The notes under the pieces: generated by a model | Databases searched by the model: none | What the model was told of the DNA's origin: nothing | The model's input: only the letters and a program-made list of their open reading frames with translations | Program-made: the position numbers and the translations under genes | Part shown: positions 34,659 through 64,000 of the stretch, piece after piece | Position numbering within the stretch: the stretch's first letter is position 1 | How the letters are laid out: the number at the start of each line of letters is the position of its first letter | Origin: Agrococcus sp. KRD186 | GTDB lineage: Bacteria; Actinomycetota; Actinomycetes; Actinomycetales; Microbacteriaceae | DNA length: 64,000 nucleotides | Reading direction: 5' to 3' | Assembly (NCBI RefSeq): GCF_017168255.1 | Contig: NZ_JABFAP010000001.1 | Span: 1,454,640-1,518,639 of the forward strand

Positions 34659-35075
34659 CTACCCGAGGATGTCGCCCAGCCAGCTGCCCTTGCGGCGGCG
34701 GTCGTCGTAGCGCGGGTCGCGGCGCTCGTCGTACCGGCCGTCGCGCCGGTCGTCGTACCGTGGGTCACGGCGCTCGTCGTAGCGGTCGTCGCGCCCCTGG
34801 CTGCGCCGCTGCACCTCGCCGAGCAGCCGCTCGGCCGCGGCGCCCAGCCCGCCGGACGATCCGGCCGGGCGCTGCTGATCCCCGTGCTGCGGGTTTGGAC
34901 CCGGCTGCGGCTGCGCCTGCTGCCACTGCGGCGCAGGCTGCTCGGCCGACCGCTCGATCAACTTGTCGAGCTCGCCCCGGTCGAGCCAGATGCCCCGGCA
35001 CTCGGGGCAGTAGTCGATCTCGATGCCGCTGCGCTCGCTCATCACGAGCGTGGTCGCGTCGTTCGGACACTGCAT
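34659..35075 (-). CDS. TFIIB-type zinc-ribbon protein with Arg/Asp tandem repeats
   Basis: A 138-aa protein. The N-terminus is a zinc ribbon: MQCPNDATTLVMSERSGIEI then DYCPECRGIWLDRGELDKLI, the zf-TFIIB pattern with one CxxN-type and one CxxC knuckle. The middle is Gln/Pro-rich. The end is a tandem repeat of RYDERRDP/RYDDRRDG-like units (residues 95-130) before KGSWLGDILG. The arrangement is common for small actinobacterial proteins of unknown function. ATG 35075 was chosen because it places the cysteines at the very start. Confidence 0.8.
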   Translation of the reverse strand: MQCPNDATTLVMSERSGIEIDYCPECRGIWLDRGELDKLIERSAEQPAPQWQQAQPQPGPNPQHGDQQRPAGSSGGLGAAAERLLGEVQRRSQGRDDRYDERRDPRYDDRRDGRYDERRDPRYDDRRRKGSWLGDILG

Positions 35076-54017: not shown

Positions 54018-55142
54018 ATGAACGAGATCCCCAAGCCCGAGATCCCGAAGCCCGAGATCCCAAAGCCCGGTGTCCCCGCACCCGACATCATCCGCTGCGC
54101 GGCGATGGACCTCGTGGTCACCGACCTCGAGGCGAGCCGTCGCTTCTACGTCGACATCCTCGGCCTGCACGTGACCGAGGAGGACGACGAGGCGATCTAC
54201 CTGCGGTCGTTCGAGGAGTTCATCCACCACAACCTCGTGCTGCGCAAGGGGCCGGTCGCGGCGGTGGCCGCGTTCGCCTACCGGGTGCGCACCCCCGAGG
54301 ACGTCGACCGCGCCGAGGCCTACTACCGGGAGCTCGGCTGCCGCACCGAGCGTCGTGCCGACGGCTTCCAGAAGGGCTTCGGCGACAGCGTGCGCGTCGA
54401 GGACCCGCTGGGCTTCCCGTACGAGTTCTTCTACGCCACCGAGCACGCCGAGCGCCTGCACCAGCGCTACGACCTGATCTCGGCGGGCGAGCTCGTGCGC
54501 CTCGACCACTTCAACCAGGTCACCCCTGACGTGCCGCGCGGCCGCAAGTACCTCGAGGACCTCGGCTTCCGCGTCACCGAGGACATCCAGGACGACCAGG
54601 GCGTCACCTACGCCGCGTGGATGCAGCGGAAGGGCACCGTGCACGACACGGCGCTCACGGGCGGGAACGGCCCGCGCATGCACCACATCGCGTTCTCGAC
54701 GCACGAGAAGCACAACATCATCCAGATCTGCGACAAGCTCGGCGCGCTCCGGATGTCCGACCACATCGAGCGCGGCCCGGGCCGCCACGGCGTGTCCAAC
54801 GCGTTCTACCTCTACATCACCGACCCCGACGGGCACCGCGTCGAGATCTACACGCAGGACTACTGGACCGGCGACCCCGACAACCCCGTCATCACGTGGG
54901 ACGTGCACGACAACCAGCGCCGCGACTGGTGGGGCAACCCAGTCGTGCCCTCCTGGTACACCGAGGCATCGCCGGTGCTCGACCTCGACGGCAACCTCGT
55001 CGAGGTCGTCGAGCGCACCGACTCCAGCGAGCTGGAGGTCACGATCGGGGCCGACGGCTTCTCCTACACGCGCGCCGGCGACGATGACGGCACGTATCGC
55101 GGCGAGGCGGCGAAGGGCTTCAAGCTCGGACACCAGCTGTGA
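54018..55142 (+). CDS. hpaD: 3,4-dihydroxyphenylacetate 2,3-dioxygenase
   Basis: A 374-aa extradiol dioxygenase of the vicinal-oxygen-chelate type, close in layout to the Brevibacterium and Arthrobacter enzymes. The N-terminal module is residues 25-140. The metal ligands are His in VRLDHFNQVTPDVPRG, His in GPRMHHIAFSTHEKH and Glu in GHRVEIYTQDYWTG, the 2-His-1-carboxylate triad for Fe(II) or Mn(II). It cleaves homoprotocatechuate proximal to the hydroxyls. The first 24 residues contain a triple PKPEI-type repeat (EIPKPEIPKPEIPKP) of no known function. AAGGAG is 9 bp upstream. Third enzyme of the operon. Confidence 0.93.
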   Translation: MNEIPKPEIPKPEIPKPGVPAPDIIRCAAMDLVVTDLEASRRFYVDILGLHVTEEDDEAIYLRSFEEFIHHNLVLRKGPVAAVAAFAYRVRTPEDVDRAEAYYRELGCRTERRADGFQKGFGDSVRVEDPLGFPYEFFYATEHAERLHQRYDLISAGELVRLDHFNQVTPDVPRGRKYLEDLGFRVTEDIQDDQGVTYAAWMQRKGTVHDTALTGGNGPRMHHIAFSTHEKHNIIQICDKLGALRMSDHIERGPGRHGVSNAFYLYITDPDGHRVEIYTQDYWTGDPDNPVITWDVHDNQRRDWWGNPVVPSWYTEASPVLDLDGNLVEVVERTDSSELEVTIGADGFSYTRAGDDDGTYRGEAAKGFKLGHQL

Positions 55143-56875: not shown

Positions 56876-57217
56876 GTGGCTGGGGTCGTGACGATGCTTG
56901 GGATCGCCTTGGTGGCGATCGTTCTGCTGTACGGTGCTTCGCTGCTCGTCACCGTCGACCGCCGCCCGATCGTCTCCTTGCCGTACCTTTCAGGTTCAGA
57001 CCCGGAGCAGCACGCGCTCTCCCGCTTCCACGCGCGCTGGTACGTGGCGACCGTCGTGTTCCTCGCCTTCGACATCGAGATGCTCTTCATGTATCCGTGG
57101 GCGGTCGTGGTGGCCACGATGGGTCCGACCGCCGTCGTGGAGATGTTCCTGTTCCTCGGTGTCCTGTTCGTCGCAGTGTTCTGGGCCTGGCGGGAAGGTG
57201 CTTTCCGGTGGGCGTGA
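56876..57217 (+). CDS. nuoA: NADH-quinone oxidoreductase subunit A-like protein
   Basis: A 113-aa membrane protein with three helices (residues 5-24, 55-74, 82-104). Family motifs are present: LSRFHARWYVATVVFLAFDIEMLFMYPWAV, with the conserved D/E residues of the loop near the quinone channel. It starts at GTG 56876 with GAGGAGGAAAGGGG upstream, so translation should be strong. It is the first gene of the complex-I-like operon. Confidence 0.92.
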   Translation: MAGVVTMLGIALVAIVLLYGASLLVTVDRRPIVSLPYLSGSDPEQHALSRFHARWYVATVVFLAFDIEMLFMYPWAVVVATMGPTAVVEMFLFLGVLFVAVFWAWREGAFRWA

Positions 57218-58842
57218 CGCATGCGCTCGCGAAGTTTGCCGCGCAGCGTGTCCACGTCCTCCTCGTCGAGGCGCCGGACGGCTGGCGGGCGCGAGTGGAG
57301 GCGGAGCATGCGACCGTCGCACTCGGGTGGCACGTATCGTTGTCTCCCGCGGATGCGGATGTGCTGGTGGTGTGCGGCTCCGCGGGGCCGGAACTGGCGG
57401 CGACCGTGGACCGCATCTGGGAGCAGCTCCCCGGTCCGCGCGTGCGGATCCAGGTCGACCGTGCGGCCGAGGTGCTACCGGGTCTGGAGCAGGCGCGCCG
57501 CAACCTGTCCGCGGTGGACGCGCATGCCGACGACGCGAGGACGCGTCCGCGCGTCGCCAGCGTGAGTTCGGCGAGCGGAGCTCACGGCGAGTCGCCAGGC
57601 GGTGCCAGCATGGACCACTCCGGCATGGGCCACGGCGGCACGGACCACAGCCAGATGGACCACTCCGGCATGGACCACAGCACCATGGACCACTCCGGCA
57701 TGGACCACAGCACCATGGACCACTCCGGCATGGACCACAGCACCATGGACCACTCCGGCATGGACCACAGCACCATGGACCACTCCGGCATGGACCACAG
57801 CACCATGGACCACTCCGGCATGGACCACAGCACCATGGACCACTCCGGCATGGACCACAGCACCATGGACCACTCCGGCATGGACCACAGCACCATGGAC
57901 CACTCCGGCATGGACCACAGCACCATGGACCACTCCGGCATGGACCACAGCACCATGGACCACTCCGGCATGGACCACAGCACCATGGACCACTCCGGCA
58001 TGGACCACAGCACCATGGACCACTCCGGCATGGACCACAGCACCATGGACCACTCCGGCATGGACCACAGCACCATGGACCACTCCGGCATGGACCACAG
58101 CACCATGGACCACTCCGGCATGGACCACTCCGGCATGGACCACTCCGGCATGGACCACTCCGGCATGGACCACTCCGGCATGGACATGGCACCAGGGGGG
58201 ATCCCTCTGGCCGACGGGGCCACCGACCGCGATGGACTGGAGATGGACACGCTGAAGGTACAGCTCGGTCCCGTGCTGCCCTACTGGCCGCCGGGCCTCG
58301 TGCTGCACTGCTCCTTGAACGGCGACGTCATCACCCGGGCGCAGGCCCGTGCGCTCGACGACGCGTGGGAGGGGCTCAGCGCGCCTGGCGGCCGCGACGC
58401 GGCAGCTCGACACTGCGACGATGCGGCCGCGGTGCTTGCGCTCGCGGGAGCGTCAGACCTCGCAGCCGATGCGCGCCGACTCCGCAGCGCGCTGCTGCGC
58501 GGCGACGCCTCGACGGCCGGGACGGCACTGGAACGTCTCGAGCGCCGCATCCGCCGTTCTCTGCTCCGCTGGAGCCTGGGCCGGCTGGGAGTCGTGGACG
58601 ATTCCGCGCTCGCCCAGCACCTCGGTCTGGCGCACGCGGGCGGCGTCTTCGATCGGCTCCTGGGGATGCTCGGCGCCGCGCGCGATGCGATCAACGGCTC
58701 CACCGAGGAACGACGAGACGCGAGACGCCTCATCACGGCGCTGCCGCAGCTCGTGACCGGTCTCGACCTCGCAGCCGCAAGGCTCGTCGTCGCAAGTCTC
58801 GGTCTGCCTTCGCTCGCCGCAGATCGGCATGCTCATGACTGA
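57214..58842 (+). CDS. NuoB/NuoD-like fusion with a Met/His/Asp-rich repeat array
   Basis: A 542-aa cytoplasmic protein. Residues 1-115 resemble a reduced NuoB: DADVLVVCGSAGPELAATVD and RIWEQLPGPRVRI sit where NuoB has its conserved loop, but the four Fe-S cysteines are absent. Residues 133-324 consist almost wholly of MDHSGMDHST repeats. From 340 a NuoD-like start follows (MDTLKVQLGPVLPYWPPGLV, LHCSLNGDVITRAQARALDD) and then a helical part. NuoD quinone-site residues are not evident. The protein takes the place of nuoB, C, D in the operon. MDHS-type repeats occur in copper-handling proteins, so metal binding is likely. GTG 57214 overlaps the nuoA stop; GTG 57208 is also possible. Confidence 0.8.
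   Translation: MTHALAKFAAQRVHVLLVEAPDGWRARVEAEHATVALGWHVSLSPADADVLVVCGSAGPELAATVDRIWEQLPGPRVRIQVDRAAEVLPGLEQARRNLSAVDAHADDARTRPRVASVSSASGAHGESPGGASMDHSGMGHGGTDHSQMDHSGMDHSTMDHSGMDHSTMDHSGMDHSTMDHSGMDHSTMDHSGMDHSTMDHSGMDHSTMDHSGMDHSTMDHSGMDHSTMDHSGMDHSTMDHSGMDHSTMDHSGMDHSTMDHSGMDHSTMDHSGMDHSTMDHSGMDHSTMDHSGMDHSTMDHSGMDHSGMDHSGMDHSGMDHSGMDMAPGGIPLADGATDRDGLEMDTLKVQLGPVLPYWPPGLVLHCSLNGDVITRAQARALDDAWEGLSAPGGRDAAARHCDDAAAVLALAGASDLAADARRLRSALLRGDASTAGTALERLERRIRRSLLRWSLGRLGVVDDSALAQHLGLAHAGGVFDRLLGMLGAARDAINGSTEERRDARRLITALPQLVTGLDLAAARLVVASLGLPSLAADRHAHD
57661..58185 (+). repeat. Perfect 30-bp / 15-bp coding tandem repeat
   Basis: Fifteen identical 30-bp units (57661-58110), each encoding HSGMDHSTMD in frame, followed by five identical 15-bp units (58111-58185) encoding HSGMD. 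I see no base difference between copies. The array keeps the reading frame and makes all six frames open, hence many false ORFs here. Confidence 0.98.
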
Positions 58843-59770
58843 CACCGTGATCGAGGTCGGACCATGGTGGGCGGTCGTTGGCGCCCTACTGCTCGCGGCA
58901 CTGGTGTTCGCAGCGGTGACCTTCGACGGGATGCTTGCTGCAAGGGCGCAGGGCGGATCTCCAGCAGCAGCGCTCCGCTGGCCCGCAGCGGAAACGGCAC
59001 GCCTGCTCCGGCAGCGCCGACGGACCACCGTGGCAGCGGACTCGCTGCTGTGGCGCATCGGCGGCGGCGGAATGCTCGTCGCGGCACTGCTGAAGATCAC
59101 CGTCGTCCCGTTCGGCGAGTGGACGCTGTTCGACTTCGAGGCGGGACTGGTCTGGTTCAACGCGATGGATGTGCTGGTCTGGGCCTTCGTCTGGCTCGTC
59201 GGTTGGGGCGGCAATTCGGCGCACGCGCTCGTGGGCGGCTACCGCTTCCTCGCACTCGCCGTGGCGTACGAGCTGCCGCTGATGTTCGCGCTCATCGCCC
59301 CGGCGATCGCCGCCGAGAGCCTGAATGTGGGCACGATCGTGGCAGCGCAGTCGGAGCTCTGGTTCATCGTGTGGATGCCGGTGGCGTTCGTGATCTACTC
59401 GGTCGGTGTGGTCGCGTTCTCCGTGTGGGGCCCGTTCGGCTCGTCGCTCGGATCCGACATCGCCGGCGGGGTCGCCGCCGAGCTGTCGGGCGTGGACCGG
59501 CTCGTCTTCTTCGCCGGCCGCTATGGCGTGCTCGTCGCGGGCGCGGCATTCGCGGTGCCACTGTTCCTGGGCGGAGGCTCGGGCGCGTTCCTGCCGGAGT
59601 GGTCCTGGTCGCTGCTGAAGACCGTGCTGGTGCTCGCCGCCTTCGTCTGGATCCGGCGCAAGATCCCGCTGATGCGACCCGAGAAGTTCATGGAAGTCGG
59701 CTGGATGCTGCTCATTCCAGCGGGGATGCTGCAGGACCTACTGGTCGCAATGGTGGTGGTGAACCGATGA
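58835..59770 (+). CDS. nuoH: NADH-quinone oxidoreductase subunit H-like protein
   Basis: A 311-aa membrane protein with about eight helices. The C-terminal half is recognisably NuoH: AAELSGVDRLVFFAGRYGVL, VPLFLGGGSGAFLPEWSWSL, LKTVLVLAAFVWIRRKIPLM and FMEVGWMLLIPAGML. The N-terminal quinone-loop motif of standard NuoH is missing or strongly altered. The ATG at 58835 overlaps the fusion-gene stop by 8 bp. This subunit normally forms the quinone site with NuoB and NuoD; here those partners are degenerate. Confidence 0.85.
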   Translation: MTDTVIEVGPWWAVVGALLLAALVFAAVTFDGMLAARAQGGSPAAALRWPAAETARLLRQRRRTTVAADSLLWRIGGGGMLVAALLKITVVPFGEWTLFDFEAGLVWFNAMDVLVWAFVWLVGWGGNSAHALVGGYRFLALAVAYELPLMFALIAPAIAAESLNVGTIVAAQSELWFIVWMPVAFVIYSVGVVAFSVWGPFGSSLGSDIAGGVAAELSGVDRLVFFAGRYGVLVAGAAFAVPLFLGGGSGAFLPEWSWSLLKTVLVLAAFVWIRRKIPLMRPEKFMEVGWMLLIPAGMLQDLLVAMVVVNR

Positions 59771-60336
59771 CCCTGATCGGCGACGTGATGTTCTGGGCGC
59801 TGGGCGTGATAGCCGTGCTCTCCGGCGTCGCGGTGTTCTGGGTGAACTCCATGGCGCGGGCCACCTACGCACTCGCCATATCGTTCGTGGCGGTCGGCCT
59901 GCATCTGCTGCTGCTCGACCAGGCATATCTGGGCGTCATCACCATCCTGATGATGGTCATGGAGATGGCGGTCATGGCCGTCTACATGATCATGTTCATG
60001 GGGATGAACCCGGCGCTCATGCCGATGAGCATGGTGCACGACAAGCGGCTCTCGCTCGTCATCGCGCTCGTCACGTTCGCGCTGCTCGCCGCCGGCATCC
60101 TGCTGACACCGTGGCCCGCGGGCAGCCCGGCGCCGACCGAGGGCGTCACCATGGCGCTCGGCGAGGCGCTCATGGAGTCGAAGATGCTGGCCATGATCGT
60201 GCTGAGCCCGGTGATGGTGGCGACGATCATCGCCGGCGTGAGCCTCAGTCTGCACCGCGGTCGCTACGACCGCTACGGCGACGACCTCAAACGGCCGAAG
60301 GCCGACGATCCGCAGCCGGGCGGTGTGGGCCGATGA
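59767..60336 (+). CDS. nuoJ: NADH-quinone oxidoreductase subunit J-like protein, Met-rich
   Basis: A 189-aa membrane protein with five helices. The family order is kept: MFWALGVIAVLSGVAVFWVN, NSMARATYALAISFVAVGLH, LLLLDQAYLGVITILMMVME, then two later helices. Helix 3 and the loop after it have twelve methionines in 28 residues (MMVMEMAVMAVYMIMFMGMN and on to PALMPMSM), far above normal NuoJ. The tail is charged and disordered. ATGA overlap with nuoH. Confidence 0.88.
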   Translation: MTLIGDVMFWALGVIAVLSGVAVFWVNSMARATYALAISFVAVGLHLLLLDQAYLGVITILMMVMEMAVMAVYMIMFMGMNPALMPMSMVHDKRLSLVIALVTFALLAAGILLTPWPAGSPAPTEGVTMALGEALMESKMLAMIVLSPVMVATIIAGVSLSLHRGRYDRYGDDLKRPKADDPQPGGVGR

Positions 60337-60635
60337 CCCTGGAGATGGTGCTCCTGATCGCGGCCGCGCTGTTCAGCGTGGGCCTGTACGGGGCGATCTC
60401 GCAGCAGGTCGTGGTGATGGTGATGATGGGCCTGGAGCTGATGCTCAACGGTGTCATCCTCGCCGCGGGCGCGTTCTGGTGGTTCCTCTCGCCCGAGCCG
60501 ACCGGTCAGGTGCTGCTGCTCGTCATCATCGCCGCGATGACGATCGAGATGGCCATGGGCTTCGCGCTGGCGACGCTCGTGCATCGTGTGCGTGGCAGCG
60601 ACATGACCGACACAGCGTCGGAGCTGAAGCAGTGA
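60333..60635 (+). CDS. nuoK: NADH-quinone oxidoreductase subunit K
   Basis: A 100-aa, three-helix membrane protein. SVGLYGAISQQVVVMVMMGL, ELMLNGVILAAGAFWWF contains the conserved glutamate in helix 2, and LLLVIIAAMTIEMAMGFALA the second in helix 3; both take part in proton transfer. The start overlaps the nuoJ stop (ATGA). Length is normal. Confidence 0.93.
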   Translation: MTLEMVLLIAAALFSVGLYGAISQQVVVMVMMGLELMLNGVILAAGAFWWFLSPEPTGQVLLLVIIAAMTIEMAMGFALATLVHRVRGSDMTDTASELKQ

Positions 60636-60654: not shown

Positions 60655-62577
60655 ATGAGCGCGACGGCCGCACTCTGGCTACTGGTGCTGCTGCCTGCGA
60701 TCGCCGGTGCGCTGCTGTGCCTCCTGCCACGGGCGGAGCGCGTGGCAGGAGTCGTCGCGGTCGGTGTCGCCGCTGTCAGCCTCGTCCTCGCCGTCGTGGT
60801 CGCGGTCGCCCAGCCGACCGCCGCCGTGCCGTTCATCGCCGGCGCCGGATTCGATCTGCGCGTAGATGGGCTCTCCGCGATCTTGCTGCCGACGGTCGCC
60901 GCGGTGACGCTGTTGGTGCTGATCTTCGCTGCTGGTGACATCCGGGAGGGACGCCCTCGGTTCTACGGCCTGATGCTGATCTTCGCCGCCGCGGCGCTGC
61001 TCACCGCCGTCGCCGGGAACCTCGTCACGCTGCTGTTCGCCTGGGAGATCATGGGAGCCACCTCCTATGCGCTGATCGGGTTCTGGTGGCGCGACGGCCA
61101 CCGGTTGGCAAGCGGCACCACAGCGTTCATCACCACCCGCGCCGGGGATCTCGGGCTCTACGCGGCGGCGGGTGCTGCGCTCGGCGGGGGCGCTGGCCTC
61201 GGACTCGCCGCGCTTCCGGACGCGACGGCAGGCTGGCGGGACGTCGTGGCCGCCGGCATCCTCGTCGCGGCGCTCGGCAAGGCGGCGCAGCTGCCCTTCT
61301 CGTTCTGGCTCTCCCGAGCCATGGATGGCCCGAGTCCGGTCAGCGCGCTGCTGCACTCCGCGGCAATGGTGGCTATGGGCGGCTATCTCCTGCTCCGCGC
61401 CGCGCCGCTGCTCGAATCGACCGGTTGGGCTGACACGGCTGCGGCATGGATCGGTGCCGCAACCGCGCTGCTGCTGGGCGCGGTCGCCGTGGCACAGCGG
61501 GATGTGAAGCAGCTGCTCGCCGCCTCCACCGCGGCACAGCTGGGGTTCGTCGTGCTTGCCGCTGGCCTCAGCGCGCAGGGCGCCGGTGTCGCGCACCTGG
61601 TCGCGCACGCCTCGACCAAGGCTGCGCTGTTCATCGCCGCCGGCGCCTGGCTGACCGCGCTCGGCACACGACGCCTCTCCAGCCTGGCCGGTGCCGCGCG
61701 GCGCTGGCGCGTGCTCGGTGTGTCCGCGAGCATCGCGGCCCTCGCCCTTGCGGGCATCCCACCCCTGTCGCTCTGGGCGACGAAGGATGCCGTGCTCACC
61801 GCAGCGCTCGAGGAGTCGCTGTGGCTCTACATCGTCGGCCTCGCTGCCTCCGCGCTGTCGGCCGTCTACGCCGGCAAGCTGATCGTCGCGATCTGGCGGA
61901 GACCCGACGCGCAGACCGCGACGCACTACGACGAGGACGAGCGAGGGACCCGCCATGTCGGCGCACTCGAATCGGCCCCTGTCGCGGTGCTCGCAGCCGG
62001 CGCGGCGGTGCTCGGCATGCTCGCGCTCCCGCCGCTCAGTGGCGCGGTCGCGCAGGCGATCGGTCAGGAGCCTGCTGCGCCGGGCGTCTGGGAGCTGGTC
62101 GCCTCAGGGGCCATCGCCCTGGTGCTGGTGCTCGCTGCGACGCGGTGGCGGCCCCCCGAGCCGCGCTGGGCCGCCGACTGGCTGGGACTCGAGCTGGCCG
62201 CGGATCGGCTCCTGGTACGGCCCACGTTGCGACTCGCGGACCGCCTCGCGCGTGTCGACGACGCCGGCATCGACGCGGCCGCGGATGGCGCGGCGACGGC
62301 ATCGCTGGCGATCGCGCGCAGGGCAGCCTCCCTCGATGACGCCGGGATCGATGCGGCAGCCGACGGCGCGGCGGCTGCGTCGCTGGCGATCGCGCGCGGT
62401 GCGGCTTCGTTCGACGATCGGGGGGTCGACCGCTCGGTCGACGGGTTCGCCCGACGCATCTGGCGCGCAGGTCGCGACAGCGCACGTGCGCAGAACGGCC
62501 AACTGCACCACTACTACGCGCAAGCGGTCGCTCTGCTCAGCGTTGCAGTCGTGCTCCTCCTCGTGATCGAAAGGTGA
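60655..62577 (+). CDS. nuoL: NADH-quinone oxidoreductase subunit L
   Basis: A 640-aa antiporter-like subunit with about 15 helices. Key proton-path residues are present: Glu in LLFAWEIMGATSYALIGFWW, Lys in ALGKAAQLPFSFWLSRAMDG, PSPVSALLHSAAMVAMGGYL, and AQRDVKQLLAASTAAQLGF and VAHASTKAALFIAAGAW. The C-terminal stretch before the last helix contains a tandem repeat of 26 residues (DDAGIDAAADGA type), in the region that in normal NuoL forms the long lateral helix. ATG 60655. Confidence 0.93.
   Translation: MSATAALWLLVLLPAIAGALLCLLPRAERVAGVVAVGVAAVSLVLAVVVAVAQPTAAVPFIAGAGFDLRVDGLSAILLPTVAAVTLLVLIFAAGDIREGRPRFYGLMLIFAAAALLTAVAGNLVTLLFAWEIMGATSYALIGFWWRDGHRLASGTTAFITTRAGDLGLYAAAGAALGGGAGLGLAALPDATAGWRDVVAAGILVAALGKAAQLPFSFWLSRAMDGPSPVSALLHSAAMVAMGGYLLLRAAPLLESTGWADTAAAWIGAATALLLGAVAVAQRDVKQLLAASTAAQLGFVVLAAGLSAQGAGVAHLVAHASTKAALFIAAGAWLTALGTRRLSSLAGAARRWRVLGVSASIAALALAGIPPLSLWATKDAVLTAALEESLWLYIVGLAASALSAVYAGKLIVAIWRRPDAQTATHYDEDERGTRHVGALESAPVAVLAAGAAVLGMLALPPLSGAVAQAIGQEPAAPGVWELVASGAIALVLVLAATRWRPPEPRWAADWLGLELAADRLLVRPTLRLADRLARVDDAGIDAAADGAATASLAIARRAASLDDAGIDAAADGAAAASLAIARGAASFDDRGVDRSVDGFARRIWRAGRDSARAQNGQLHHYYAQAVALLSVAVVLLLVIER
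62257..62457 (+). repeat. 78-bp coding tandem repeat in nuoL
   Basis: Two full 26-codon units (62257-62334, 62335-62412) and a partial, more diverged third (62413-62457). The units encode DDAGIDAAADGAAxASLAIA then RxAAS. The DNA copies differ at third positions, so this is older than the MDHS array. Confidence 0.85.
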
Positions 62578-62580
62578 CCC

Positions 62581-64000
62581 ATGCTGAGTGCCATCGTCTT
62601 CCTGCCGCTCGTCGCCGCGCTGCTGCTCGCCGTGCCGGCCATCCCGGATCGCGTCGCACGCTGGATCTGGGTAGCGGTTGCGGCAGTGGATCTCGCGCTG
62701 GTCGCCGTGGTCTGGGCGAACTTCGAGGAGCCGCCGGAGGGCCAGCTCGCGTTCGAGGAGCGCCTGGCGTGGATCCCGGGCGTCGGCGCCAGCTACCACA
62801 TCGGCGTGGACGGTCTGTCCCTGCCGCTCGTCGGGATGACGGCGATCGTCTTCCTCGCGTGCGCCATCTATGCGCTGCGGGACGACGACCGCCCGCGCAT
62901 CCAGGCGGCACTGTTCCTCTTCCTGCAGAGCGTCAGCCTCGGCGTGTTCGTCGCTGCCGACCTGATCCTCTTCTTCGTCTTCTTCGACCTCTCGATCGTC
63001 GGCATGTACTTCGTCATCGCCGGCTGGGGTCACGGAGCCACTGCCGGGCGCTCCGCGCTGAAGTTCTTCCTCTACACCTTCCTCGGGTCGCTCGCACTGC
63101 TGCTGGGCTTCATCGGACTGTACGTCTCTGCCGACACGCCGACGTTCGACATGGTCGAGCTCGTCGAGATGATGCCGCTGCAGGGCGAGCCGGTGATCGG
63201 CGGGGCGGTGCTCGCGGCCATCCTGATCGGACTGGCCGTCAAGACCCCCACCGTTCCCTTCCACACCTGGCTCCCGCCAGCCCACACCGATGCGCCCGCC
63301 ATCGGGTCCGCGGTGCTCGCAGGGGTGCTGCTGAAGATGGGCACCTACGGCTTCGTGCGCATCGCGATGCCGATGCTCCCGGAAGCGTGGCAGGACTGGG
63401 CGTGGCCCATCATCATCGTCGGCGTGGTCTCGGTGCTGTACGGCGCTCTCGTCGCACTCGCTCAGCGGGACGTCAAGCGCATGGTCGCCTACACATCCGT
63501 CAACCACATGGGCTACGTCGTGCTCGCGGTCGGCGTGGCCGGCCTCGTGGGCAGCGGCACGGACGATGCCCGGCGCCTGGCGATCGTCGGGGCGGAGACG
63601 CAGATGGTGAGTCACGGACTGATCACCGCGGCGCTCTTCCTGCTCGTCGGCGTGCTGCGCGATCGAGCGGGCACCTACGAGCTCTCGGCATACGGAGGCC
63701 TCGCGGGTCCTGCACCGAGGCTCACCACCCTGTTCGCGATCGGCGCGTTCGCGTCGCTCGGGCTCCCAGCCTTCTCCGGCTTCATCGCCGAGTTCCAGAT
63801 CTTCGCAGGTGCCGTCGGCACCGCCCCGATCACCGCCGTGGCGCTGCTCGGCATCCTGCTCACCGCCGCGATGTTCCTGCGGGCCGTGCAGCGCCTCTTC
63901 GCCGGCGAGACGCGCGGCGGTTCGATCGGGTTCCGCGACCTGTCGGCGACCGAGCTGTGGTCGGCGGGACCCCTGCTGGCGCTCTCGCTCCTCATCGGTG
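62581..64000 (+). CDS. nuoM: NADH-quinone oxidoreductase subunit M (cut by window end)
   Basis: The first 473 codons of a NuoM-type antiporter subunit; no stop inside the window. GVDGLSLPLVGMTAIVFLAC, the lysine in GLAVKTPTVPFHTWLPPAHT, DAPAIGSAVLAGVLLKMGTY, LAQRDVKRMVAYTSVNHMGY and SHGLITAALFLLVGVL are all standard. The helix-5 carboxylate, glutamate in E. coli NuoM (E144), is aspartate here (D136, in FFVFFDLSIVGMYF). It starts 3 bp after nuoL with AAAGG upstream. nuoN would be expected next. Confidence 0.93.
   Translation, partial: MLSAIVFLPLVAALLLAVPAIPDRVARWIWVAVAAVDLALVAVVWANFEEPPEGQLAFEERLAWIPGVGASYHIGVDGLSLPLVGMTAIVFLACAIYALRDDDRPRIQAALFLFLQSVSLGVFVAADLILFFVFFDLSIVGMYFVIAGWGHGATAGRSALKFFLYTFLGSLALLLGFIGLYVSADTPTFDMVELVEMMPLQGEPVIGGAVLAAILIGLAVKTPTVPFHTWLPPAHTDAPAIGSAVLAGVLLKMGTYGFVRIAMPMLPEAWQDWAWPIIIVGVVSVLYGALVALAQRDVKRMVAYTSVNHMGYVVLAVGVAGLVGSGTDDARRLAIVGAETQMVSHGLITAALFLLVGVLRDRAGTYELSAYGGLAGPAPRLTTLFAIGAFASLGLPAFSGFIAEFQIFAGAVGTAPITAVALLGILLTAAMFLRAVQRLFAGETRGGSIGFRDLSATELWSAGPLLALSLLIG

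Follow-up and report, generated by a model that had tools for sequence, protein, structure and literature searches.

The closest described relatives of the system considered here are respiratory complex I and a partial complex I operon of actinobacteria. The latter, nuoAHJKLMN, has been described in Salinispora, Streptomyces and Kocuria as "marine adaptation genes" or "NDH-1 partial 2" and, in the passages of these papers at hand, is proposed to support the upkeep of a proton or sodium gradient in marine strains (PMC3314556, PMC6676996, PMC6002675, PMC8622039). One of these accounts places a hypothetical protein between nuoA and nuoH, and a figure legend states that the hypothetical proteins of the operon have no homologues in UniProt or PDB (PMC6676996). 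An operon with the same order, nuoA, hypothetical gene, nuoH, J, K, L, M and N, lies at the end of a 64,000-nucleotide stretch (hereafter, the window; C1:1454640-1518639, C1 being contig NZ_JABFAP010000001.1) of the 3.1-Mb genome of Agrococcus sp. KRD186. The gene between nuoA and nuoH, which we denote BD, encodes two domains that resemble NuoB and NuoD and are joined by a long Met/His/Asp repeat array. We hold, with moderate confidence, that this operon encodes a redox-dead relative of complex I that handles copper and that the array is its copper arm, leaving open whether and in which direction copper is transported. The marine-adaptation accounts invoke salt or proton roles and, in the same passages, mention no NuoB/NuoD origin, metal arm, Met stripe or copper neighbourhood for the hypothetical gene.

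Complex I shares with this operon homologous A, B-like, D-like, H, J, K, L, M and N components encoded in one operon, with a largely intact proton relay. Unlike complex I, the operon lacks C, E, F, G and I, the cysteine pair of cluster N2 and the GPQHPSTHG motif are lost, and the Glu residues of the NuoH cavity are changed. Mrp-type Na+/H+ antiporters contain NuoL/M-like subunits and no redox cofactors, and the NuoL/M proteins of the window also match Mrp models (NCBIfam); to our knowledge, these antiporters lack NuoA, NuoH, a B/D-like subunit and a metal arm. Among copper transporters, human CTR1 (SLC31A1) has an MxxxM motif in a transmembrane helix. Outside the cell, its clusters of His, Met and Asp bind Cu(I)/Cu(II) (PMC8867124). 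The likeness of these clusters on a flexible arm to the array is one of description, with no homology claimed; unlike the array, the CTR1 arm lies on the opposite side of the membrane, and CTR1 is an importer.

Among the copper exporters known in bacteria, P-type ATPases and proton-driven resistance-nodulation-division (RND) pumps predominate. A review of bacterial copper homeostasis includes the proton-driven RND pumps among such exporters; "nuo" is absent from its text, and no complex I appears in the passages seen (PMC7558416). Neither the motif MDHSGM in literature text nor a published copper role for the operon was found, the latter judged from titles, abstracts and passages, with most subscription papers and all bioRxiv preprints outside the search. 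In Acidithiobacillus ferrooxidans, DNA methylation of nuoH/I/J/K/M/N is lower under copper stress, the identity of the operon not being evident from the part of the paper seen (PMC12668529), and a 2025 survey of Nuo clusters handles partial clusters in general terms in the passages at hand (PMC12361115).

The BD protein and its putative metal arm

Sampling of the family and the class identified 8 bearers among 150 and 26 among 394 genomes, respectively, the genome of the window being counted in both, for a total of 33 distinct genomes with 34 copies of the operon. The sequence counts below use 31 BD proteins including that of the window, with three copies (L016, L029, L048) omitted for assembly gaps or a broken frame.

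The N-terminal domain of BD is, on profile evidence that is significant but partial, probably a remnant of NuoB. The family profile of the first 110 residues, built from the 31 sequences, matches the NuoB chain 2fug_6 from PDB with E 6.5e-7 over about 40 residues (the matching segment being SPRQADVMIVAG...WEQMPDPK), and hhalign of the family against E. coli NuoB gives a probability of 83.7%. The window protein itself falls under every curated NuoB cut-off (NCBIfam), and PF01058 is never above cut-off in this protein or in the six proteobacterial relatives scanned. The CC pair of cluster N2 is missing from all 31 N-terminal domains, which contain 0-3 Cys each, most commonly at the V-C-G position (19/31).

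The C-terminal domain (the last 218 residues) is, by profile bridging, a NuoD remnant. Direct hhalign of the actinobacterial domain to canonical NuoD is weak (probability 1.6%), and a Pfam scan gives no PF00346 match in the window protein; NuoD ancestry is accepted because proteobacterial intermediates bridge this gap. The actinobacterial and proteobacterial C-terminal domains match at 99.6%, E 6e-25 (A3 vs A9), the proteobacterial one (A9) matches canonical NuoD at 99.5%, E 5e-23, and PF00346 is above cut-off in 6/6 proteobacterial relatives scanned. In the columns of GPQHPSTHG, the initial GP is kept in 31/31 proteins and QHP in none. Comparisons against NuoL and NuoB alignments gave no match, and structure predictions for the window sequence and one named relative are poor (predicted local distance difference test scores of 50 for the C-domain and 45 for the N-domain). 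An earlier note on this DNA, made from the sequence alone, had called the carrier NuoB/NuoD-like, an assignment that is supported here.

A profile search found neither PF01058 nor PF00346 in the genome of the window, so that there is no canonical NuoB/NuoD partner there for the operon to borrow. PF00346 is likewise absent from all eight Microbacteriaceae bearers, and canonical NuoD is encoded elsewhere in 25/33 bearers. The C, E, F, G and I genes are absent from the operon, the search for NADH-module families having been confined to it. BD is presumably cytoplasmic, judging by the lack of a signal peptide, assessed by eye, and by complex I topology.

Between the two domains lies the array, which the earlier note had described as about 190 residues long, with fifteen identical 30-bp units, five 15-bp units and about one Met, one His and one Asp in every five residues. 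This description is accurate. Tandem Repeats Finder (TRF) reports a single array at 57608-58185 with period 30, 19.3 copies, 96% matches and a score of 1023, the next best of the 12 rows for the window scoring only 160. The 30-mer ATGGACCACAGCACCATGGACCACTCCGGC occurs in exactly 15 copies from 57670 to 58119, preceded by a few diverged units at the front of the array and followed by four more 15-bp MDHSG units (58120-58179), or five if the second half of the last 30-mer is counted. The 193 residues comprise 38 each of M, H, D and S, 24 G and 16 T. The frame of the array is taken as coding because the flanking domains are conserved in relatives and because the BD frame overlaps its neighbours, with the GTG at 57208 inside the 3' end of nuoA and the stop at 58842 inside the start of nuoH.

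The nearest named relative found is Agrococcus sediminis, with 80% identity in the best carrier segment. Its array is interrupted by a run of 91 Ns (L001:6664-6754), and, given this assembly gap, array lengths in short-read genomes may be wrong; the exact copy number in the window, too, may be a product of assembly. The commonest unit in A. sediminis, MDHTGTDHSQ, keeps DH every five residues and has Thr in place of half of the Met. Pentapeptide repeats, DotG/IcmE and CopI also match the array (Pfam, NCBIfam), hits that were discarded as low-complexity.

Across the 31 proteins, the linker between the two domains ranges from 15 to 224 residues and contains no Cys at all. Its median His+Met fraction is 0.21 vs 0.03 in either flanking domain, and 23/31 linkers have a fraction of at least 0.15. 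The repeat units are lineage-specific (MDHSGMDHST, MDHGG, HEGMDHGS, DHGDM, DMDHTGH, GGHEDH and others) and, because they differ among lineages, the linker has apparently been remade with this composition on more than one occasion. The heavy-metal-binding domain (HMBD) PF19335 is known from copper/silver export proteins. It is found above cut-off, in one to three copies adjoining MDH-type runs, in the linker of 4/6 proteobacterial relatives scanned, the other two being L158 and L159, and all five named plasmid relatives examined carry one to five CPM[HA] motifs together with His runs. The window protein has no PF19335 match, and the MDH array sits at that position. The occurrence of HMBD and CPM[HA] in the same linker is, in our assessment, the strongest evidence that the array is a probable metal-binding module. 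As separate observations, many BD carriers end in a short His-containing tail, and two (L031, L047) have second His-rich stretches at the C-terminus.

The membrane arm and the neighbouring genes

The residues compared with the E. coli K-12 complex I in 20 loci are those held to carry protons. D79/E81 of NuoA, E36/E72 of NuoK and E144, K229, H254, H338, K342 and K399 of NuoL are kept in 19-20/20, H334 of NuoL in 11/20, and K234, K265, H348 and E407 of NuoM as well as K217, K247 and K395 of NuoN in 18-20/20 (K217 in 18/20). Thus, the proton-relay residues of A, K, L, M and N are largely intact, which fits the arm of proton-pumping type that had been proposed earlier. In the NuoH alignment, E157, D79 and E228 are conserved, unlike E36, E71 and E216, of which the first and last align with gaps.

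The membrane arm has acquired methionines. Among the six subunits compared (H and J-N), 21 of the 28 clade-specific Met columns belong to NuoJ and NuoK. The pattern M...M..M...M...M is present in all 41 NuoJ sequences found in the 43 actinobacterial loci given, some of them near-duplicates, and in 13/13 others (eight proteobacterial and five named plasmid copies, including Rubrobacter) vs none of 14 canonical NuoJ proteins from 14 bearer genomes. The best 30-residue segment of NuoJ contains 11-13 Met in the former 41 and 10-12 in the 13 others vs 2-4 in the canonical set. If the segment is helical, M63, M67, M70, M74 and M78 of NuoJ share an 80-degree arc. Six clade-specific Met are present in NuoK, for the most part close to its two coupling Glu. 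In a phylum sample of 396 genomes, the codon pattern of the stripe turns up in four, each a known bearer, and the reversed control in none. The stripe suggests, at the level of sequence, a passage of copper through the membrane arm or an action of copper on it. Separately, the NuoJ C-termini of L158 and L159 are His-rich.

The genes within 20 kb of BD in the 33 genomes point to copper. With P values that treat the genomes as independent and ignore ancestry, multicopper oxidase (PF07731) is found in 7/33 vs 0.60 expected (P 1.1e-6), DUF305 (PF03713) in 12/33 vs 0.77 (P 1.8e-12) and the CsoR-family regulator (PF02583) in 11/33 vs 0.74 (P 4.5e-11). At least one of these three markers is present in 19/33 genomes, from nine families. 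The zinc/cobalt-type transporter control PF01545 is not enriched (2/33 vs 1.28, P 0.37), and around the best canonical NuoD match in 25 of the same genomes the counts for the three markers are 0, 0 and 0. In NCBIfam scans, the CopM metallochaperone model is matched by both DUF305 neighbours examined, in one case above cut-off. A match to the Csp1 copper-storage model, under cut-off, comes from a DUF326 neighbour, and a neighbouring P-type ATPase clears the threshold of the copper-ATPase model; the two plasmid regulators scanned have RicR as the best match, under its cut-off. The number of Met residues is also associated with a copper neighbourhood (p 3e-4, uncorrected for ancestry), which we do not use as support.

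The plasmid copies give a similar picture. Fourteen actinobacterial plasmid records carry the C-domain. Of the 11 examined, those from Arthrobacter FB24, Curtobacterium C1, Pseudonocardia alni, P. autotrophica, M. avium, M. intracellulare and M. paragordonae, seven in all, contain genes for copper or heavy metals at a distance of no more than 14 kb. The Ornithinimicrobium plasmid has a DUF305 gene about 11 kb away, and that of R. oxybenzonivorans has CopY-family regulators only, with no nuoJ found there. The Curtobacterium nuoA begins 81 bases after the end of a gene for a heavy-metal P-type ATPase, and in Pseudonocardia the genes divergent from nuoA encode a CsoR-type regulator, a protein of the heavy-metal-associated type and a P-type ATPase. 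Copper or heavy-metal genes are near in all five examined of the twelve plasmid records annotated as heavy metal-binding domain proteins. The plasmids on which the operon resides inside a copper cluster are those of Arthrobacter FB24, Curtobacterium C1, the two Pseudonocardia, Roseovarius, Rubrobacter, Sulfitobacter and Nitratireductor. CsoR-type palindromes scoring at least 11/12 within 400 bp upstream of nuoA are found in 3/31 loci vs 0.56 expected, and at 10/12 in 7/31 vs 1.4, two of these being near-duplicates, near a divergent regulator gene.

The earlier note had inferred a cytoplasmic copper, nickel or zinc store, sensor or scaffold. The metal link is supported, specifically for copper, with metal binding by the array itself putative; a role as store, sensor or scaffold is conjectural.

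Copper and the competing explanations

Taken by its parts, the copper reading is uneven in strength. Very probably, the operon handles copper; the array is probably a copper-binding arm; that the complex itself transports copper is a possibility we would put a little short of even. The most specific version, offered tentatively and with no greater confidence, is a new transporter class, a proton-driven Cu(I) exporter that uses the complex I membrane arm as its frame. The quinone module would then have turned into a copper-loading arm, and the coupling helices of NuoJ/NuoK into a methionine-lined copper path. The assembly would no longer perform NADH/quinone chemistry and would be devoted to copper. 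BD, a fused pseudo-NuoB/NuoD, would cap the end of the membrane arm at the former quinone site, with its linker hanging in the cytoplasm and presumably binding copper, through the MDHSG/MDHST array here and, in many Proteobacteria and Rubrobacter, through heavy-metal-binding domains and His/Met runs. The arm would raise the local copper concentration and pass copper to the NuoH/J/K end, where Cu(I) may be handed to the NuoJ/NuoK path; its passage might be driven by, or gate, proton flow, with coupling to proton flow through NuoL/M/N. The most likely outcome would be expulsion, with multicopper oxidase and CopM/DUF305 proteins handling copper outside; the export direction is taken from the resistance context only. 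A copper-devoted member of the complex I superfamily would be categorically new as a system, all of its parts being relatives of known ones.

If this is true, a copper machine derived from complex I would add a class of transport and account for an operon whose present annotation is NADH dehydrogenase and whose supposed role is marine adaptation. It would also be a natural experiment on the far-end coupling of complex I, with a metal rather than quinone reduction as the trigger.

Several findings weigh against copper. His, Met and Asp are weak ligands against a cytosol in which Cu(I) is buffered by thiols. Besides the shared ancestry that the P values ignore, none of the three markers lies within 20 kb in 14/33 genomes, and on the Gordonia and R. 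pyridinivorans plasmids no copper gene is annotated within 14 kb. Persulfide sensors, among others, fall under PF02583 as well; only three of the five chromosomal PF02583 neighbours examined have the C-H-C pattern of CsoR, the two without it being that of the window itself and that of genome G395, its sole marker. The 400 bp upstream of the window nuoA contain no CsoR-type site, and residence on the same mobile islands might be all that links the operon to the copper genes. In the arm, E144 of NuoM is replaced by Asp in 20/20 loci and E133 of NuoN by Leu in 19/20. One proteobacterial locus (L160, a 5.6-kb contig of G1220) has nuoA-BD followed by a heavy-metal P-type ATPase, with no nuoH; this may be a misassembly or a real rearrangement, and with it the gene order of the operon is not universal. 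Finally, the array is absent from 2/31 proteins (L035, L038) and almost absent from L032. Relatives of this kind had been named in the earlier note as refuting a metal role; they were found, and it follows that a long array is not required everywhere.

These same arrayless relatives, the variation in linker length and the 15 identical units, which point to recent expansion, are what would be expected if the array had grown neutrally, by slippage of a short seed in a disordered linker, with no function of its own. The substitutions are divided: the crude repeat-to-repeat nonsynonymous/synonymous ratio over all arrays, 0.28, runs counter to neutral growth but comes from few differences, and the window array alone, with 11 nonsynonymous vs 3 synonymous differences, gives no sign of constraint. 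Neutral growth nevertheless seems quite improbable to us: differing repeat units retain the same His/Met/acidic make-up, and a known metal-binding domain, PF19335, occupies the same spot elsewhere. A H+/Na+ pump or antiporter for salt or pH stress, in which the array collects cations or protons and the copper genes are passengers of the island, would accord with the marine-adaptation literature, in the passages seen (PMC3314556, PMC6676996, PMC6002675, PMC8622039), and with the largely intact relay of NuoL/M/N. We regard it as unlikely, although less so than neutral growth, in that it leaves unexplained the HMBD domains in the linker, the clade-specific Met stripe of NuoJ and the enrichment of copper genes with a negative zinc/cobalt-transporter control.

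One alternative lies within the copper reading itself. Copper on the arm or on the Met stripe might open or close proton flow and thereby protect membrane energetics under copper stress, with no copper being transported. Such a copper-sensing valve draws on the same data, in particular the positions of the clade-specific Met, which are found in NuoJ and, in NuoK, close to the coupling Glu. Five Met lined up within 80 degrees seem more than a sensor site would need, and we consider the valve rather unlikely.

Layout, distribution and minor observations

The order A-BD-H-J-K-L-M-N is found in 20/20 chromosomal loci, the BD frame being cut by assembly Ns in L051 and L064. The coordinates for the window and its continuation are given in the table.

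Features of the operon (positions in the window; C1 positions lie beyond it in the same genome)
Feature	Position	Strand	Basis or remark
nuoA, D79/E81 of E. coli kept	56876..57217	+	PF00507 E 2.3e-24; residues in 20/20 loci
Carrier BD: NuoB-like domain, putative metal arm, NuoD-like domain	57208..58842	+	544 aa, GTG start
NuoB-like domain without N2 cysteine pair	57208..57537	+	profile, hhalign, cysteine count
Met/His/Asp array, proposed copper-binding arm	57607..58185	+	aa 134-326; TRF, composition counts, relatives
NuoD-like domain, GPVLPYWPPG in place of GPQHPSTHG	58186..58839	+	via proteobacterial intermediates
nuoH	58829..59770	+	PF00146 E 6e-43
nuoJ with clade-specific Met	59767..60336	+	PF00499
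NuoJ Met stripe, residues 61-91, LMMVMEMAVMAVYMIMFMGMNPALMPMSMVH	59947..60039	+	pattern M...M..M...M...M
nuoK; E36/E72 equivalents kept, clade-specific Met 29, 31, 69, 73, 75, 91	60333..60635	+	PF00420
nuoL; E144, K229, H254, H338, K342, K399 kept	60655..62577	+	PF00361
nuoM, runs past window end; K234, K265, H348, E407 kept, E144 to D	62581..63999	+	TIGR01972
nuoN	C1:1518714-1520120		follows nuoM
Multicopper oxidase	C1:1520237-1521781		follows nuoN

Outside the actinobacteria, the C-domain profile matches 15/229 genomes of the class of Psychrobacter, several of them weakly; nine loci were fetched, and all but L160 have the whole order (L166 with ambiguous bases). A profile search of the alphaproteobacterial class gave 0/240, which reflects a limit of sensitivity or sampling rather than absence since tblastn found plasmid copies in Alphaproteobacteria. 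The proteobacterial C-domain matches 39 plasmid records, the best twelve of which, ten from Alphaproteobacteria and two from Rubrobacter, are annotated as heavy metal-binding domain proteins; the remaining listed records are hydrogenase or NuoD-type relatives, or unannotated. Genome G531 holds two whole-operon copies (L024/L049; L058/L059), each with a multicopper oxidase within 3 kb.

Downstream in the Agrococcus genome, a thioredoxin gene and a PF02583 regulator gene (L050:12079-12309) are immediately preceded by the sequence ATACCCCCGGGGTAT, a perfect palindrome of CsoR type (L050:11632-11646). The ligand pattern of this regulator, C..N..C, is closer in appearance to that of a persulfide sensor than to that of CsoR. 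A transposase-like frame (L050:15347-16414; IS3 type by eye), some 6 kb past nuoN, adjoins a run of Ns and suggests the border of a mobile element.

Two further repeats are present in the window. The frame 54018-55142 opens with a 15-bp tandem repeat coding for IPKPEIPKPEIPKP (54018-54080), and an imperfect tandem repeat of period 24/48 occupies positions 34695-34795.

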